A stretch of 64,000 nt of DNA. It comes from a virus. The number at the start of each line of letters is the position of its first letter. Positions within the stretch are counted from its first letter, which is position 1. Under the pieces are notes generated by a model. That model searched no databases, was not told where the DNA came from, and was given only the letters and a program-made list of their open reading frames with translations. The position numbers and the translations under genes were made by a program. The stretch spans positions 22,811 to 86,810 of the IMG/VR virus record IMGVR_UViG_3300008450_000013; one strand, written 5' to 3'. This document shows positions 4,344 through 26,186 of the stretch, piece after piece.

Positions 4344-4377
4344 ATACCAAGGACTAACCTCCTTGGTATTTCTTTTT
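4344..4377 (+). terminator. Rho-independent terminator after the 86-aa gene
   Basis: A perfect 9-bp stem (ATACCAAGG/CCTTGGTAT) with an 8-base loop, followed by TTCTTTTT. Confidence 0.9.
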
Positions 4378-4387
4378 GTACAAGGGC

Positions 4388-4416
4388 TTGACAAAGCACC
4401 TGAAGTGTTATACAAT
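4388..4416 (+). promoter_or_regulatory. promoter for the terminase genes
   Basis: TTGACA (4388-4393), 17 bp, TACAAT (4411-4416), starting 10 bases after the terminator's T-run and about 30 bases ahead of the candidate small terminase gene. Confidence 0.75.
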
Positions 4417-4448
4417 GAGCGTATCAGAACAATAATAGCAGGAGATGT

Positions 4449-4829
4449 ATGAGTGGAGACGTAGATAATTCAGTAGGGGAGATAGTAAGGACAGGTGTTC
4501 AGAGTAAGAAGAACTCTATTACTATTCTGAAGAGGGCTTTGAACAAGCATACTAAAGCTGCTATTGATTTAATGGCAACTATTATGAACGACCCTACAGA
4601 GAGTAAGAAGACTCGTATGTTGGCAGCTCAAGAGATTCTAAAGTTGCACATGGAGTCTATTAAAGTTGAGTCTACTGAGAAGGCTAGGAACAAGGAATTT
4701 GCTGCGAAGCATCATGAGTTGCTTGTAAGTATTCAGCGTAATGGTGGGGTTATTGTTGATGATAGTGATAGCGAAGATGATGACGAGCAACCCCTGCTTA
4801 TGTTCGATCAGATAGCAGAAGTTGAATAA
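4449..4829 (+). CDS. candidate terminase small subunit
   Basis: A 126-residue, mostly helical protein with a basic N-terminal half and an acidic C-terminus (DDSDSEDDDE). Terminase small subunits bind the packaging site and load the large subunit. The assignment rests on its place directly ahead of terL and on size and charge pattern; no conserved motif was recognised. ATG follows AGGAGATGT. The 312 bases between its stop and terL are unusually long for this genome and highly structured. Confidence 0.5.
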   Translation: MSGDVDNSVGEIVRTGVQSKKNSITILKRALNKHTKAAIDLMATIMNDPTESKKTRMLAAQEILKLHMESIKVESTEKARNKEFAAKHHELLVSIQRNGGVIVDDSDSEDDDEQPLLMFDQIAEVE

Positions 4830-4904
4830 AGAATAAGGGAAGGGATCAGCCAACCCCGACAGGATTGAGGAGTTCCTTATAAACCTCGCTTAGATTGTAA
4901 ATAC

Positions 4905-4979
4905 AACAGCTCTCCACTGATTTCTCCTTGGCACGTTCCTCCTCCTCGTGCTTTCTCCTGTCAGTGTCTGAGAGCTGTT
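4905..4979 (+). other. long three-segment stem-loop between terminase genes
   Basis: Nested inverted repeats: AACAGCTCTC (4905-4914) with GAGAGCTGTT (4970-4979); directly inside, CACTGA (4915-4920) with TCAGTG (4961-4966); and GCACG (4931-4935) with CGTGC (4947-4951) at the tip. The two unpaired sides between the inner stems carry nearly the same sequence (TTTCTCCTTG and TTTCTCCTG). In all, 21 base pairs of exact complementarity. No gene covers it. It could be a packaging (cos/pac) site or a structured RNA; the sequence does not decide. Confidence 0.7.
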
Positions 4980-4994
4980 CTGTTTGCAATTTTC

Positions 4995-5056
4995 ACAACA
5001 GTGTTTCGTCCCATATCTGGTTAGTAGATTCAGCTCTTATCGTGGAACACTGTTGT
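4995..5056 (+). other. second large stem-loop between terminase genes
   Basis: ACAACAGTGTT (4995-5005) is the exact reverse complement of AACACTGTTGT (5046-5056). Four further pairs including G-U extend it inward, giving about 15 pairs around a 32-base loop. It follows the 4905-4979 element by 15 bases and precedes a small hairpin (GTAGC/GCTAC, 5072-5087). Confidence 0.65.
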
Positions 5057-5079
5057 AGTTTCGTGGAGAGGGTAGCATT

Positions 5080-5124
5080 ATGGCTACTAAGGTTCTGGCA
5101 GGTAGTTTAGTGGCGTGGAACTAA
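5080..5124 (+). CDS. possible 14-codon leader peptide before terL
   Basis: ATG at 5080 preceded by GGAGAGGG (5064-5071) opens MATKVLAGSLVAWN and a stop 17 bases before the terL start. The ribosome site is good, but the frame is very short and the ATG overlaps a hairpin (5072-5087). It may act as a leader, or be chance. Confidence 0.25.
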   Translation: MATKVLAGSLVAWN

Positions 5125-5141
5125 GAATTTAAAGGAGTATT

Positions 5142-6896
5142 ATGGTTAAAAAAGATCGAGTAAAGTTTCAACCTTGCTCAGAGAAACAAAAGCTAATTTT
5201 GATGGATAACACCACGGACGTTATCCTGATAGGCGGTGGTGAACTTGCGCCTCCGCATTAAAAACAACTTCTTAAACGGTGAAACTCTCTAGTAGACAAT
5301 ACCGTGCCAAGCCCCTGAAGGGTGCAGTGCGTAACGACCAATCCGAAAGGATGTAGGGCTAAGTAGCTCGAAACAGAAGTCCTCGAAAGAGTGAAGATAT
5401 GGTCTGGTCTTTATGGTGACATAAAGCAGCTTAAAAAGCGGAAGTAGATTAACGAACTACTTTGAACACAAACAGCAGGAGGAGGCAAATCGAGGATTTG
5501 CCTTACAAAGAATTTAGATGGTATTAAAGATGGAAAGTTCCGTTGCGTTATTCTGAGACGTTTTGAGCCAGAGCTTAAAAAACAAGGTGGCTTGATTGAT
5601 GAATCCAAGAATATCTACCCACACTTTACAAAAATACCTTACAAAAGTCAACAAAAATTATGGGAATTTCCATCTGGAGCCACAATCGGGTTTTCAGCAA
5701 TATCTTGTGACGATGATTTAGGGAGCTGGCAGGGTAGCCAACTAACGAGGGCTTTGATAGACGAGGCGGCTGATAAGTGGACTGAAAAACAAGTTTTGTT
5801 CTTACAATCTCGTTTGCGTACAGTTGGCTCTGATATTCACCCGCAACTGATTATGTCTTGCAACCCAGACCCTAACAGTTTCTTATTTGAGTGGGTTAAG
5901 TTCTGTCTTGATGAAGACACAGGAGTACCAAAAGAAGGTACTGAGTATCTTATCAGATGGTTCTGTGTAGAAGATAACAAAGCTAAATGGGCTGATAGTC
6001 CAGAAGAGTGCTATGAATTATATGGTGCTCCCAAGAATCTAATTTATGCTCATGGAATGACAGAAGAACAGATGAACGCATTCTCTAAAGAAGAGAAGAT
6101 GCGGTTGTTCATGCCTAAGTCATTCAGGTTCATTCCAACTGGTGTTTTTGACAACCCATATCTACTCCCACCAAAGAATACAAGTTACTTAGCATCTCTC
6201 CTTTCCCAACCTTATGTAAATCAGTTAAAATTTTTACATGGAAGTTGGACAGCACGAGAACTTGGGAGTTCTTACTTCGACAGAAAGTGGGTTCAAATCG
6301 TTGACCAACCTCCCGTAAATGCAACAGCTAGGATACGTTCTTGGGACTTCGCTTCAGAAGAAAAGACAAAAACTAACAACCCCGATTGGACAGCAGGTGT
6401 AAAAATGTCTAGGGATAGGTACGGTATTTACTATATCGAGGATGTTGTCAGAGTGCAGATGCGGATTGACGGTGTTTTAAAAACCGTCATTGAGACTGCT
6501 AAAGCTGACGGTGTAGGCGAATGTGAAGTCTGCATTCCAGTTGACCCTGCAGCAGCGGGTAAGAGTAGTGCTCACTTCTTTCAGAAGGTATTAGCAGAAA
6601 ATGGCATTCCTTGTAAGAAAGCTCAGTCCTCTGGACACAGTAGCAAGCTCACAAGATTTAAACCGTTTTGTGCATTAGCTGAGAGTGGTAGTGTTCGTGT
6701 GGTTCGAGGGGATTGGAACGATGCATTTTTTGCAGAGCTTGAAGCATTCTCTGGTGACAAAGCAATTGAGAGAACTCAGAAGAACGACCAAGTTGATGCT
6801 TGCTCAGATAGTTTTAACAATTTAGCAAGACAATTACAGCTACCTGTATTCTCAGTACCGTCCCTAACAAAAGCCTCTCCTGTCCCAACAATATAG
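5142..6896 (+). CDS. terL: terminase large subunit, split by a group I intron (exons 5142-5240 and 5475-6896)
   Basis: The packaging motor ATPase and headful/cos nuclease. Exon 1 encodes 33 residues ending VILIGGG and then hits a stop (TAA 5259-5261). Exon 2 resumes AGGGKSRICL; joined, the Walker A motif is GGGAGGGKS and the protein is 506 residues, normal for TerL. Walker B is ALIDEAAD. The C-terminal RNase H-like nuclease has WDFA, VDPAAAG and DQVDA acidic residues. Start ATG at 5142 follows AAAGGAG. Without splicing only a 39-residue peptide, or a TTG-started protein lacking the ATPase P-loop, could be made. Position after the candidate small subunit and before portal agrees. Confidence 0.9.
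5241..5474 (+). ncRNA. group I self-splicing intron, 234 nt, no ORF
   Basis: Exon 1 end GCGGTGGT pairs with the internal guide GCCTCCGC (5249-5256) apart from one U-U mismatch, with U.G at the splice site (P1). CTTGC just before the guide pairs with the exon 2 start GCAGG (P10). Core: GACCA (5336-5340) with TGGTC (5400-5404) as P7-like pairing, AACGACC and GAAGATATGGTC core-like strings, and GAAA-loop hairpins at 5341-5352 and 5382-5391. Peripheral hairpins: 5409-5426 (7 bp, GTGA loop), 5429-5439, and 5442-5462. Because G lies at both junctions, cuts at 5240/5241 or 5241/5242 give the same mRNA; the latter leaves the usual terminal G on the intron. Confidence 0.85.
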
Positions 6897-7005: not shown

Positions 7006-8520
7006 ATGCCAGAAGCGACCTCGCCTGATGGCGTTGCAACAGCTCTACAGCCTGACAGTGGGACAACTATACCACGTATCAAATTAGGAAGTCAAGGGTT
7101 TGGAGTATTAAAAACCTCTAACGGACGCATCTACGAAGAAGCTAACGCAGCCTTTAGGATGCCAGCTCGTATCAAAGTTGTGGACGAAATGAGGCTCTCA
7201 CCTCCAGTCAGCATCGCCATGAACGCACTTAAAATGCTCATGAATCGTTCAGAGATGTACGTAGAGCCTTTTGATGACACTCCTAAGCACAGAGAACGTG
7301 CAAAGTTCTTACACTCTTGTTTGCATGACATGGAAGAAACATTTCAGCAAACAATGCAGAATACGTTCCCTGTTCTTGAGTATGGCTTCCACGTATCTGA
7401 AAAAGTATACCGCAGACGCTTGAAAGTAAACGGTAGTAAATACAATGACGGACTCGTAGGGCTTAAATGTCTTGCAACTCGCCCTCAAGCTTCCATTGAA
7501 AAGTGGAACTTCTCAGAAGATGGTAGAGATCTTGTCAGTGTATCACAGTCTATTGCAAACCTCGAAAACAGTTACAGATTCAAAAACCTCACAGATGAAA
7601 ATGGCTTAATTGTCATACCTCGTGAGAAGTTTGTACTCTTCAATGTTGACCCTACAAATGGTAATCCTGAAGGTAACAGCATTCTCAAAGCAGCATATTT
7701 AGCTTACAAGCAATTGACATTGCTCACAGATAATATGATGACAGGTGTTGCCAAAGATACACAGGGACTTCCTGTTATTGGTATTCCTCCTCAGTATATG
7801 TCTGCAGACGCTAGTGACGATCAAAAAGCTGTCTATCAGATGTTCATGAAGATTGTTGATGATTTAGCAAGTGGTACTCAGCGTGGTATTGTTATGCCAA
7901 AGTCTTATGACATGGATTCCAAGGGTGAAATGTTCACTGTGGAATTGTTAGAGTCTAAAGGTGGTAAGGCTTACAACGTGTTAGAGATTATCAAGACACT
8001 TCAAGCTAACATTCTTTCTGTGCTTTCGTGTGATGCTGTCAAGATGGGTAGTGATACTTCTGGGAGTTTGTCACTTGAGGACGGGGACACGAACCTCTTG
8101 GCGATGGCTGTTAGTTATCGGTTGATGGAGATTGCTAACGCTTTAAACAAGGATTTAGTGCAGCAGTTATGGTCACTCAACGGATGGGACTTGTCAGAAA
8201 TGCCTCAGATTAAATTCAAGGATGTTTCTAATGTATCTCAGGAAACTTTCAGTAAGTTTATACAACGAGTGGCTTCAACAGGTTTGTTAGAACTTGATCG
8301 TGGTGTCATGAACCGTGTACGAGAAGTCGGTGGATTTGATTTACTTCCACATGATCTTCCAATTCAAGAAGATATGTTATCAACAACTATGGCTGGAAAA
8401 GCTTCTAGCGCATCCGAGGGTATGGAAGTTGGGGTTGGTAATACTGTTGAGGGTGGGACGTCTAAAGGTGGCGGTAAGAAGACTGACAATTCTGCGAAAA
8501 ATAACGATAATAAGGGGTGA
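7006..8520 (+). CDS. portal protein
   Basis: A 504-residue protein between terL and the head protease, the usual portal position and size. The portal ring forms the DNA entry/exit vertex and docks the terminase. The region MPARIKVVDEMRLSPPVSIAM resembles the start of DUF935/Mu gp29-type portals, followed by the helical body; the C-terminal 50 residues are Gly/Ser/Lys-rich and probably disordered. ATG follows AAGGAGCAATAA. Its stop overlaps the start of the inserted GIY-YIG gene. Confidence 0.8.
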   Translation: MPEATSPDGVATALQPDSGTTIPRIKLGSQGFGVLKTSNGRIYEEANAAFRMPARIKVVDEMRLSPPVSIAMNALKMLMNRSEMYVEPFDDTPKHRERAKFLHSCLHDMEETFQQTMQNTFPVLEYGFHVSEKVYRRRLKVNGSKYNDGLVGLKCLATRPQASIEKWNFSEDGRDLVSVSQSIANLENSYRFKNLTDENGLIVIPREKFVLFNVDPTNGNPEGNSILKAAYLAYKQLTLLTDNMMTGVAKDTQGLPVIGIPPQYMSADASDDQKAVYQMFMKIVDDLASGTQRGIVMPKSYDMDSKGEMFTVELLESKGGKAYNVLEIIKTLQANILSVLSCDAVKMGSDTSGSLSLEDGDTNLLAMAVSYRLMEIANALNKDLVQQLWSLNGWDLSEMPQIKFKDVSNVSQETFSKFIQRVASTGLLELDRGVMNRVREVGGFDLLPHDLPIQEDMLSTTMAGKASSASEGMEVGVGNTVEGGTSKGGGKKTDNSAKNNDNKG

Positions 8521-9323
8521 TGATATTGGCAATTTTATATTGGATACATTTACCTGAGCACACTGATATTACTTCAAGTGGGTATGTTGGGATAACAGTC
8601 AAAACCCTATCTCACCGTTGGTCTAGTCATAAAACTGCAACTAAAACTGCGTCTAAACAACATTTACCTATTGTACGTGCAATAAATAAGTACGGACATG
8701 AAAATTTGCTTGTAGAACCTCTTTTAGAAGGCTCTGAAGAATATGTAGCTTTAATAGAAAACAAACTCCGACCCTCTTGTGGTATTGGTTGGAATTGTGC
8801 CATAGGTGGTCAAGCTACAGGAGTGGGGAGAAAACATTCACCTGAAAGTATCGCCAAACGAGTTGCTAAGGTGAGAGGTACAAAACGTTCTGAAGAGACT
8901 AAATTGAAACAATCCCTCGCTTCCAAAGGTAAACCTAAATCTCCTGAACATAGACAAAAATGCGCGATTGCTAATCTAGGTAAGATTAGATCACAAGAAG
9001 CTAAAGACACTCAAAGAGATAAGATGTTAGGCAAGAAGAAGATAACTGAGGAAGGTAGACTAAAGTTATCAGAGTACCACAAAAATCTAAAACCTTGGAA
9101 AAGGTCAAGGGCTAAATTCTCTTTGTGGTCTGGTGCAGCTACTCTGTTTGATTTGTTCTGTAAAGGGAATACATTGACAAATGGATTTGTGCGAACAGTC
9201 TTAAATGACAAGAACATATCTCCTATTACAATTAGGAATATGATTGAATCAGGATGGAACCCAAACGAAGATCAAGAATACCTTTCTTGGTTAGAAGAAA
9301 GAAAGGATAACGATGTCACATGA
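8520..9323 (+). CDS. GIY-YIG homing endonuclease with NUMOD3 motifs
   Basis: A 267-residue protein. The N-terminus has LYWIHLPE and SGYVGIT, the two halves of the GIY-YIG nuclease fold, and RWSSHK with the usual arginine. From about residue 100 come repeated NUMOD3-type DNA-binding motifs (GRKHSPESIAKRV, GTKRSEETKLKQS, GKPKSPEHRQKC). Such freestanding enzymes cut intronless/HEG-less alleles and spread by repair. It overlaps the portal stop (TGATG) and the protease start, so it is a clean insertion in the head operon. The ATG at 8520 after AAGGGGTG was chosen over GTG 8517. Confidence 0.9.
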   Translation: MILAILYWIHLPEHTDITSSGYVGITVKTLSHRWSSHKTATKTASKQHLPIVRAINKYGHENLLVEPLLEGSEEYVALIENKLRPSCGIGWNCAIGGQATGVGRKHSPESIAKRVAKVRGTKRSEETKLKQSLASKGKPKSPEHRQKCAIANLGKIRSQEAKDTQRDKMLGKKKITEEGRLKLSEYHKNLKPWKRSRAKFSLWSGAATLFDLFCKGNTLTNGFVRTVLNDKNISPITIRNMIESGWNPNEDQEYLSWLEERKDNDVT

Positions 9324-23508: not shown

Positions 23509-26186
23509 TGGCAACAATTGTAAATGCGAGAGATGTACTTCTTCAAGCTGCAACACGGCTCATCTCTGACAACATTTTGTCAATTGAAGAAAAACCAAGT
23601 TGGATTACAGCGTATGCCAACATCCTGTCAGAACAAACTTCTGTAGGAGCTGAAGCTACTAAGTGGGGCTTGACAGCACAAAAGACAACTTACGACACAG
23701 CTATCTCAGCACTTACAACTTACCTTGGGACTCTAACAACTCCTGTTGCGTGGAACAACTTGACAAACATCACTGTACTATCCTCTGGTAGTAATGGTGG
23801 CGTTACATTCAGAAGTAAGTTTACTGATGTGTCTACAGCCAAAGCTGCTATTTACGCTGGTGTAACTGCTGTTCCAACGACTAAGAGTATTGTTGTTACA
23901 GCTTCATCTCAGCTATTCCAAATCAGCAAAGCAGGCGTTAATAGTCCTGCAAGTGTGACATTCACAGCACAACGCGAGAATCTCCCAATCAATCCTACTT
24001 GGTCTATCACAAGTGGGACAGGAACTCTCACAAGTGTCTCAGGCGATAGTGCAACTATTACGTTTGCAAACATGACCTCTGACACAGTGACAGTTAGAGC
24101 ATTGGACAGTGCGAGTGGTTTGTCTGATAGTATCACAGTTGTTAAGGTAAGAGAAGGTGTAGATGCTGTTGTAGGTTATCTCACAAATGAAGCACACACT
24201 CTTCCTGCCTCTGACACTGGTGTTGTATCAAGTTATGTAGGAGCTGGTGGAACATTTAAAGTTTACTACGGAGCTGCAGATGTTACAACGTCATGTACAT
24301 TCTCTGTACAAACAAACTCCAGTTCTGTCACAACATCTATTGGAGCATCTACAGGTGTGTATGCTATTACGGCAGGTATTCCGAATGGTACTCCTGTTGT
24401 CACAGTTACTTACAGAGCAACATATACAAGCCCTTTAGGTAATGCATACACAATAGATAAAACTTTCACAGTTGCTAAATCTAATGCCGGAACAAATGGT
24501 ACTAATGGAACGAATGGCACAGATGCATTGTTAATGTCAATGACTGTTAGTAGTCAAGTGTTTCAGATCAGTAAGAGTAATGTTGTAACACCGAGTAGTA
24601 TTATGTTTACAGCTAAACCTAATAATGTTGCAGGAGCAAACTACACTGTCACAAGTGGTACAGCGACTCTTACTTCAGTCTCAGGTAATAATGCTACTCT
24701 GACATATGCCAACCTTACTACAGACACTGCCACAATTCGTGTTGCTGATAATACAAATACATACGCAGACACAATTACTGTAATTAAAGTGAGAGAAGGT
24801 GTTGACAGTTTGTCTGGTATTCTGACAAATGATAGCGTAACAGTTCCTGCGAGTTCTGCGGGGGTTGTGTCAAGTTATTCCAGTGCCACAGGCAGTTTCA
24901 TTGTCTACTATGGCAGTGCTAACGTCACAACATCGTGTACGTTCTCTGTACAATCTAACCCTGACAGCTTGACAACAAGTATTGTTGGGAGTGGGGCTAG
25001 TGCAGGACAGTATAATGTCACAAGTGGCATGAGTAGTGTGACTAATGCTAATGTTACATACAGAGCTACATACACAAATGCTTTTGGTACTGTGTTTACA
25101 GTGGATAAGATATTCTCTTTGTCTAAAAGTAATACAGGGGCTACAGGCAATACAGGAGTTACAGGTGCTCAAGCTCGTATTGCTTATGGCAAATTCAGTA
25201 TAGGATTTGTTCCTTCTGCAAGTCCAAGCAGTCAAACAGTAGTAGGAGATACACTTCCGACAGCAGGGTATTGGGGTACTCAGATTGGTGCTTGGCAAAC
25301 AACACCATTTACTTTAGCTACAAATGAAATGCTATTCCAGACAACCGGATTGTTTGATACAGTATTAAATCAAACAGTTTGGGTAGAACCTTACCAAAGT
25401 AATTTGAAAGTTGGTAATTTGTCAGCTCTCACAGTAAACACAGGGACACTTACAGTAGATACAGCAGGGCATATTAAAGGTGGTCAGACAGCTTACAATA
25501 CGGGTACAGGTTTTTGGCTTGGGTATGACAGTGGAGCTTACAAGTTCTCCCTTGGTAGTTCTACTAACAACATAAAGTGGACTGGTACAGGTTTGTCTAT
25601 TTCTGGGGATATTGACGCTTCTGGTGGAGCTAAATTTGTTTTAACTGCCTCCAATTATGTTCAACTTGTAAGTGGCGCAGGTAGTCCAATACTCGGCATT
25701 TATAAAGGAACCAATAACGCATTTCCAGCTATGCGCGTTTCCGACTCCGCAGCCACCTCTGAAAGTTCGTTAGATATTGCATCTAATACAACAGGAAGTG
25801 GTGCGGCTATTCGTGCAACAATGACAGGGACAGGTTATTGTGGGTTGTTCTCTGGCAGTAAGTTTGGCATTGGCGCATCTACTCCAATAGAATTAAGCGG
25901 CAGCGTAGGGACTTCAGGACAAGTATTAACAAGTGGTGGAAGTGGAGCTACACCGACATGGGGTAAGAAGATGTTCAGTGGTGCTAGTGCTGCAGATGGC
26001 TCTGGTAATCTTACTGTCACTGTTAGTTTTCCTGACACAAGCTATGCACCTGTTGCTACATCTACAAGTGGTGTCTATGTTGTTGTTACAGCTAAGTCAA
26101 CAACGTCTATTACGTTCCAAGCACAAGATAGAGCTACAGGGGCTGGTGTTGCAAGTGCAGGCATTAGCTGGATTGCAATGGGCTGA
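23508..26186 (+). CDS. tail fibre / tip attachment protein with two Ig-like repeats, 892 aa
   Basis: Starts on the stop of the hub gene. Residues about 127-326 and 342-546 are two copies of the same module: SSQ.FQISK start, TLTSVSG central, VIKVREGVD joint, then YRATYT and SKSN end. Each contains an Ig-like beta domain. A collagen-like spacer (GTNGTNGTNGT) lies between. The C-terminal 350 residues are Ser/Thr/Gly-rich, fibre-like. Probable host-recognition protein. Confidence 0.7.
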   Translation: MATIVNARDVLLQAATRLISDNILSIEEKPSWITAYANILSEQTSVGAEATKWGLTAQKTTYDTAISALTTYLGTLTTPVAWNNLTNITVLSSGSNGGVTFRSKFTDVSTAKAAIYAGVTAVPTTKSIVVTASSQLFQISKAGVNSPASVTFTAQRENLPINPTWSITSGTGTLTSVSGDSATITFANMTSDTVTVRALDSASGLSDSITVVKVREGVDAVVGYLTNEAHTLPASDTGVVSSYVGAGGTFKVYYGAADVTTSCTFSVQTNSSSVTTSIGASTGVYAITAGIPNGTPVVTVTYRATYTSPLGNAYTIDKTFTVAKSNAGTNGTNGTNGTDALLMSMTVSSQVFQISKSNVVTPSSIMFTAKPNNVAGANYTVTSGTATLTSVSGNNATLTYANLTTDTATIRVADNTNTYADTITVIKVREGVDSLSGILTNDSVTVPASSAGVVSSYSSATGSFIVYYGSANVTTSCTFSVQSNPDSLTTSIVGSGASAGQYNVTSGMSSVTNANVTYRATYTNAFGTVFTVDKIFSLSKSNTGATGNTGVTGAQARIAYGKFSIGFVPSASPSSQTVVGDTLPTAGYWGTQIGAWQTTPFTLATNEMLFQTTGLFDTVLNQTVWVEPYQSNLKVGNLSALTVNTGTLTVDTAGHIKGGQTAYNTGTGFWLGYDSGAYKFSLGSSTNNIKWTGTGLSISGDIDASGGAKFVLTASNYVQLVSGAGSPILGIYKGTNNAFPAMRVSDSAATSESSLDIASNTTGSGAAIRATMTGTGYCGLFSGSKFGIGASTPIELSGSVGTSGQVLTSGGSGATPTWGKKMFSGASAADGSGNLTVTVSFPDTSYAPVATSTSGVYVVVTAKSTTSITFQAQDRATGAGVASAGISWIAMG
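23886..25145 (+). repeat. tandem duplication inside the tail fibre gene
   Basis: Unit 1 is about 23886-24486 and unit 2 about 24532-25145. They are diverged at DNA level but align throughout in protein, including the strings VREGVD, VTTSCTFSVQ, TYRATYT. Confidence 0.75.

Follow-up and report, generated by a model that had tools for sequence, protein, structure and literature searches.

The window analysed here, a stretch of 64,000 nucleotides, comprises bases 22811-86810 of an IMG/VR record of 86810 bases. The features mapped below from 4344 to 6896 lie on its + strand. A terminator-like hairpin of 10 pairs with a U-rich tail (4344..4369) stands upstream of a sigma-70-like promoter, TTGACA-17-TACAAT (4388..4416), whose 11 of 12 consensus matches bear out the promoter placed at 4388 by the initial annotation. 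The following ORF (4449..4829) precedes the large terminase gene, terL, and was named putative small terminase gene (terS) from its position alone; its product has relatives that are 68-75% identical, no Pfam family, and a single weak PHROG match of unknown function (E 0.0033).

The terL gene appears to be split. Its first exon (5143..5240) runs to the P-loop codons and encodes a protein that fits the starts of the uninterrupted terL genes of loci L002 and L004, and its second exon (5475..6896) matches PHROG 979, terminase large subunit, with E 1.9e-116. The putative group I intron between them (5241..5474, boundaries within one base), which interrupts the P-loop codons at a site where terL is continuous in L002 and L004, matched the full Rfam model RF00028 with 44.9 bits, below the gathering score of 50, and E 1.5e-9. 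Introns at or near this site were also seen in L031 and L017, and a second terL site is occupied in L003 and L004. Further downstream in the window, a homing-endonuclease-like gene (8517-9323; PHROG 314, E 8e-22) follows a portal-like gene and precedes the next of the head genes.

Between the putative terS and terL lies the stretch under study (4830-5142). Its ORFs are all short, at most 60 amino acids, in agreement with the non-coding nature originally assigned to it. Models of tRNA gave no match in the window or in its whole record, and the record keeps the structures of the stretch despite this absence.

The structured element reported between the terminase genes proved real. Its largest part is hairpin 1 (H1, 4892..4992), built of outer arms (4892-4903/4981-4992 and 4905-4914/4970-4979), a middle helix of 7 bp (4915-4921/4960-4966), near-identical internal-loop strands of the UCUCC type (4922-4929 and 4953-4959), an apical helix of 6 bp (4930-4935/4947-4952) and a CU-rich apical loop. 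The nested inverted repeat and the near-identical loop strands had been described before for 4905-4979, an extent that was too small, as the arms reach 4892 and 4992. Folded alone, H1 yielded -44.1 kcal/mol and z -9.9, with none of 200 shuffles as good, and the whole 313 nt folded together showed mild stability (z -1.83, 5 of 100 shuffles as good). The second stem, hairpin 2 (H2, 4995..5056), is also present, with 14 pairs (4995-5008/5043-5056) and not the 15 originally counted; it was found in five loci, where its loop is very conserved and compensatory changes are few.

The third hairpin of the initial annotation was located at 5071-5088. Together with a fourth helix (5091-5122), which that annotation had not listed, it forms a conserved domain, referred to as R2 (5061..5122; GUGGAGAGG, helix a at 5071-5088 and helix b at 5091-5122), at the 3' end of the element. 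R2 measures 62-68 nt among its members, scores 49.4 bits in the window and ends there 20 nt ahead of the terL start codon. In distant relatives, with TerL about 70% identical, its motif reads GUGG[AU]GAGG, a hairpin, and a second hairpin with an AGGUAG..GUGGC loop.

Three further features were likewise new with respect to the initial annotation: the terL intron, the tRNA genes that relatives carry at the same place, and a candidate H-type pseudoknot (4861..4887; AGGA/UCCU and GAGG/CCUC), read by eye. The pseudoknot candidate has an identical sequence in L003, L031, L033, L036 and L038, and in L002/L004 and in L074 both stems appear, by eye, to have been exchanged for different sequences that are again complementary. 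Between a pseudoknot-like motif and H1, L002 holds about 150 nt of non-coding sequence (~850-1000), at a place occupied by a tRNA in L004.

Conservation of the folds was evaluated from pairs changed on both sides. The H1 model (R1), built from three sequences, matches nine loci, in which 96.8% of cells are paired and 44 cells are changed on both sides compared to 13.8 in shuffles (0/500 reaching the count). Compensatory pairs occur alike in the outer arms, the middle helix and the apical helix, and RNAalifold on a plain alignment of eight of the nine sequences predicted this hairpin too, 15 of its 29 pairs being compensated. The H1 fold is thus kept as RNA through compensatory changes in nine phages, and its CU-rich loop strands are retained across relatives. 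With E <=1 as the limit, 5 of 10 records contained H1, each at a single place, weaker matches being the same places on the opposite strand. A scan for CU-loop hairpins was rejected as a finder, as it gave many chance matches or leaders of homing genes; H1 is therefore claimed for the nine model loci only, and look-alikes in L009, L010 and L023 were not counted.

For R2, a model was made from a plain MAFFT alignment of 12 sequences including the window, in which 81.2% of cells are paired and 39 both-side changes were counted versus 15.6 expected (0/500 shuffles). In the model-fitted alignment of 24 loci the corresponding values were 89.1% paired and 100 versus 33.7 (0/500), and the later finds taken separately (16 loci without L146, giving 12 distinct rows) again exceeded all 500 shuffles. 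R2 consequently holds two stem-loops within about 70 nt, helices a and b both being backed by pair counts. Loss of stems without compensation, which the initial annotation had named among the findings that would refute it, was seen neither in H1 nor in R2, and H2 varies too little to judge. Two additions to the R2 structure were considered and rejected. A closing helix between the hairpins (GUG/CAC plus extension), an idea taken from L069 and L011, reached a count equalled by 135 of 1000 shuffles; CAC itself is present in 18 of 36 members, and the extension has at least four pairs in 9 of 16 distinct CAC members. A leader peptide starting from AUG in the loop of hairpin a was discarded, as AUG, UUG, UCG and AAG vary there and the frames, read by eye, stop at differing places.

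Selection for a DNA cruciform would leave G-U and A-C mismatches in equal numbers on a given strand. Counted on the + strand, however, the G-U:A-C ratio was 39:5 in the 24 R2 loci, 22:5 in the plain R2 alignment and 33:1 in H1. As G-U pairs outnumber A-C, it is RNA and not a DNA cruciform that is under selection, namely the RNA of the strand carrying the tRNAs and terL.

The distribution of R2 was determined in viral contigs. Searches for relatives with TerL, the H2-loop pattern and the putative terS gave 27 loci, 5 stretches and 7 loci, respectively, and an R2 pattern scan gave 22 stretches, TerL being encoded in ten; a scan of genome contigs with an R2 pattern gave no match. The R2 model matched all 24 chosen loci at E <=3e-4, and in a search over 59 loci these 24 outranked L064 and L071, with L009 as the weakest member. 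L064 and L071 (21.2 bits), with E-values nearly that of L009, as well as L147 and L111 (23.4 and 20.9 bits), all without TerL, were not counted as R2.

An independent check employed a loose pattern fixing mainly unpaired positions and two inner-stem bases of hairpin b. It returned at least 106 new loci, and among the matches listed R2 scored above 30 bits in 17. Among these same listed matches, relatives of TerL were encoded in 16 of the 17 R2-positive loci versus 0 of 89 R2-negative ones, terL lay downstream on the same strand in all 16, and the sole R2-positive locus without TerL, L116, has just 552 bases downstream. One find, L146, is the contig of L011 and was dropped from the counts of later finds. 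In total, R2 is known from at least 40 metagenomic phage loci, and 38 of these 40 (23/24 and 15/16) have a co-oriented terL downstream; the two remaining loci, L057 and L116, both end early. Exactly one copy was present in each of the 19 longer records with a clear match (12 + 7).

The distance from R2 to terL varies. In five loci (the window, L002, L031, L036 and L020) the spacing from the R2 end to the terL start is 15-20 nt, while other genes separate the two in L059, L078, L004, L074 and others, and the R2 of L069 lies shortly after a stop codon, with a terminator and then several genes placed between it and terL, some 4.6 kb further on. No clear R2 match was obtained in G001 (L003), G007 (L033), PAK_P1, Zigelbrucke, Ab03, bumzen, PN09 and PAK_P3. 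Since L003 and L033 carry terL without R2, the domain is not essential.

Within 2 kb upstream of R2, tRNA genes were found in 17 of 24 loci, with none downstream, and in 11 of 16 later loci; in L102, L116 and L138 tRNAs lie downstream instead. In close relatives the gap itself holds tRNA-Gly (L004) and tRNA-Trp (L031) according to ARAGORN, and a tRNA in L033 detected by Rfam only. An HNH endonuclease gene occupies the gap of L003, and similar-looking genes were noted by look in L004, L023 and L038. The gap before terL is thus a mobile place, where tRNAs, HNH-type genes and introns are gained or lost among close relatives.

Two side observations concern the same region. In L031, L033, L036 and L038 a TerL of a different type lies between an upstream gene of the same kind with H1 and the portal-like gene, which looks as if terL had been swapped. 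In the homing-gene cassettes (L038 ~4640-4755; L004, L003, L008) the leader-hairpin loop CCTCACAAG is complementary to the ribosome-binding region CTTGTGAGG of the gene, and by this complementarity the hairpin is likely a translation lock.

In 14 of 24 loci a terminator-like hairpin stands no more than 150 nt after R2, compared to 50 of the 480 random stretches; for the later loci the corresponding counts are 9 of 16 and 49 of 480. Where terL is the next gene, 10 of 17 loci have a U-run about 20-50 nt before its start (L007, L009, L010, L014, L101, L103, L123, L165, L167 and L173; four measured by script, six by eye); the remaining ones comprise the five loci with 15-20 nt spacing named above, which have no terminator, L011 with a weak one and L112 with a distant one. 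A sigma-70-like promoter between R2 and the next start was absent in all 14 loci scanned, including four of the ten with a terminator before terL, in a scan that phage-specific late promoters would escape. In L009 and L010, promoters were observed in the interval separating the upstream gene from the RNA region. As the terminator precedes terL with no sigma-70-like promoter between, terL in these relatives seems to need read-through past R2 and then past the terminator.

On this basis, a cis-acting RNA leader controlling transcription into the terL-led late operon is the reading we favour, with confidence somewhat short of even. RNA polymerase would start upstream (in the window at 4388) and transcribe R2, the conserved core, whose two hairpins with fixed unpaired motifs may act in cis on their own transcript. 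R2 would thereby alter whether the polymerase carries on past the next terminator-like hairpin, or across an untranslated stretch, to reach terL and its downstream genes. Long duplexes have their usual roles in RNA processing, and H1, a long duplex with CU-rich loops, could be an extra module, perhaps one for processing or for docking. The cis leader is favoured because, in the terminator-bearing relatives, transcription of terL seems to require passage through R2 and afterwards through the terminator. The strongest objection is that the clade of the window keeps R2 with no terminator and with terL starting 20 nt on, so that R2 may act differently there; also against it, tRNAs come after R2, or a terminator is missing there, in L102, L116 and L138, terL is present without R2 in L003 and L033, and further genes intervene before terL in L059, L078, L004, L074 and others. 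A bolder form, which we consider possible but doubtful, would make R2 a widespread antiterminator or signal-sensing attenuator RNA of tailed phages, placed between the tRNA genes and the late operon, such that only polymerases having made R2 pass the terminator before terL, in a put-like, non-lambdoid and possibly protein-partner-free manner.

The main rival to the cis leader, suggested by late small RNAs of phage PAK_P3, is a stand-alone trans-acting RNA freed from the transcript of the tRNA region, comparable to those RNAs, T4 band C/D, GOLLD or ROOL, with the terminator as its 3' end; in one variant the CU-rich loops of H1 could pair with ribosome binding sites. The upstream tRNA genes, the terminators after R2 and the retained H1 loops are in line with such an RNA, as are two late small RNAs before terL in PAK_P3, given in excerpts of its description (PMC4933390), although that phage shows no clear R2 match. 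A free RNA gene leaves unexplained why 38 of 40 loci have R2 ahead of terL and why the terminator abuts terL in 10 of 17, leaving no room for an ordinary promoter, and in the five closely spaced loci terL starts 15-20 nt past the R2 end. This reading was accordingly judged rather unlikely, at the level of the bolder form above. Control of terL had been proposed in the initial annotation at the level of translation. Control of terL or the late genes is supported by the compensatory pairs, the G-U bias of the + strand, the fixed place and orientation and the terminator-like hairpins of relatives. Translation itself, with R2 or H1 folding near the terL ribosome binding site or pairing with it (CUCCUU of H1 could pair with AAGGAG), is unlikely, if conceivable for the window: the R2 end at 15-20 nt from the start in five loci and the anti-SD-like H1 loops agree with it, but many relatives have a terminator, other genes or homing genes between R2/H1 and terL, amounting to ~4.6 kb in L069.

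Two further explanations were considered very improbable. The traffic of tRNAs, HNH-type genes and introns would fit leftovers of a recombination hot spot with no function of their own, yet the compensatory changes (reached by 0/500 shuffles for H1 and for each of three R2 alignments) and the conserved unpaired motifs speak against a by-product. Slightly less probable still is the packaging role (cos or pac) that the inverted repeats had first suggested. The place adjoins terL and the putative terS, and pac sites are often near terS. The G-U pairs are, however, strand-biased, and the same gap holds tRNA genes. PaP1, a related phage, carries its tRNA array directly before terL and has terL starting at 23542, far from the record ends, which excerpts of its description (PMC3652863) give as the site of a 1190-bp terminal redundancy; the argument is indirect, as the related Pakpunavirus records tested gave no R2 match. 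Strand bias, gap content and PaP1 ends considered, no evidence supporting cos/pac was obtained at 4830-5142.

Within the range of the searches made, neither H1 nor R2 has been described before. Rfam 15 at gathering score gave no family over the element or R2 across the loci searched, and none at E up to 5 and 2 either, matches elsewhere being tRNA, group I intron or chance. With blastn against GenBank phages, neither the window element nor two R2 members gave a match, and no description of the element was found in the literature, where coverage of subscription papers was thin. R2 is thus a structured family absent from Rfam 15, located at the switch point between the tRNA region and the virion genes in a broad phage group; should read-through be under its control, R2 would count among the rare RNAs that regulate late genes in phages. 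As its members are short and well defined, the idea is testable in a single reporter experiment, and even if R2 acts otherwise, the model can be used to seek carriers among isolated phages.

Among known RNAs, GOLLD and ROOL are likewise structured phage RNAs, often near tRNA islands, but they extend over many hundred nt and have their own Rfam models, which fail to match here, whereas R2 is below 70 nt. In PAK_P3, the two small RNAs detected by RNA-Seq in the region before terL are strongly expressed late, according to excerpts of the report (PMC4933390). Like the present element, sRNA1 and sRNA2 are non-coding, belong to the tRNA region before terL and occur in a phage with a related TerL; the best R2 match there had E 0.56, however, neither fold stands out (z -1.15 and -0.34), and sRNA2 contains a stretch resembling a tRNA T-loop. 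Homology with RNAs of PAK_P3 or Pakpunavirus was therefore not adopted, given no clear R2 match and nothing beyond CU-rich hairpins seen by eye in L051. In L051 (Pseudomonas phage Zigelbrucke, 3222-3550), two hairpins with CCTCC-type loops stand between the tRNA array and terL, their likeness to H1 being confined to the loop sequence.

The nearest working example is the put (polymerase-utilization) antitermination RNA of phage HK022, to which R2 may be compared without membership being claimed. The R2 model found no match at E 10 in the HK022 record NC_002166, a query that distant kinship could escape, so R2 would at most work like put. In contrast to R2, which precedes a late operon, put serves early operons of lambdoid phages. 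The layout proposed for R2 would nevertheless resemble that of put, as R2 also consists of two stem-loops in 62-68 nt ahead of terminator-like hairpins. Excerpts of the published account (PMC9378689) describe put as a phage leader of about 70 nt with two stem-loops, which acts on its own transcript, causing the polymerase to pass intrinsic and rho-dependent terminators.
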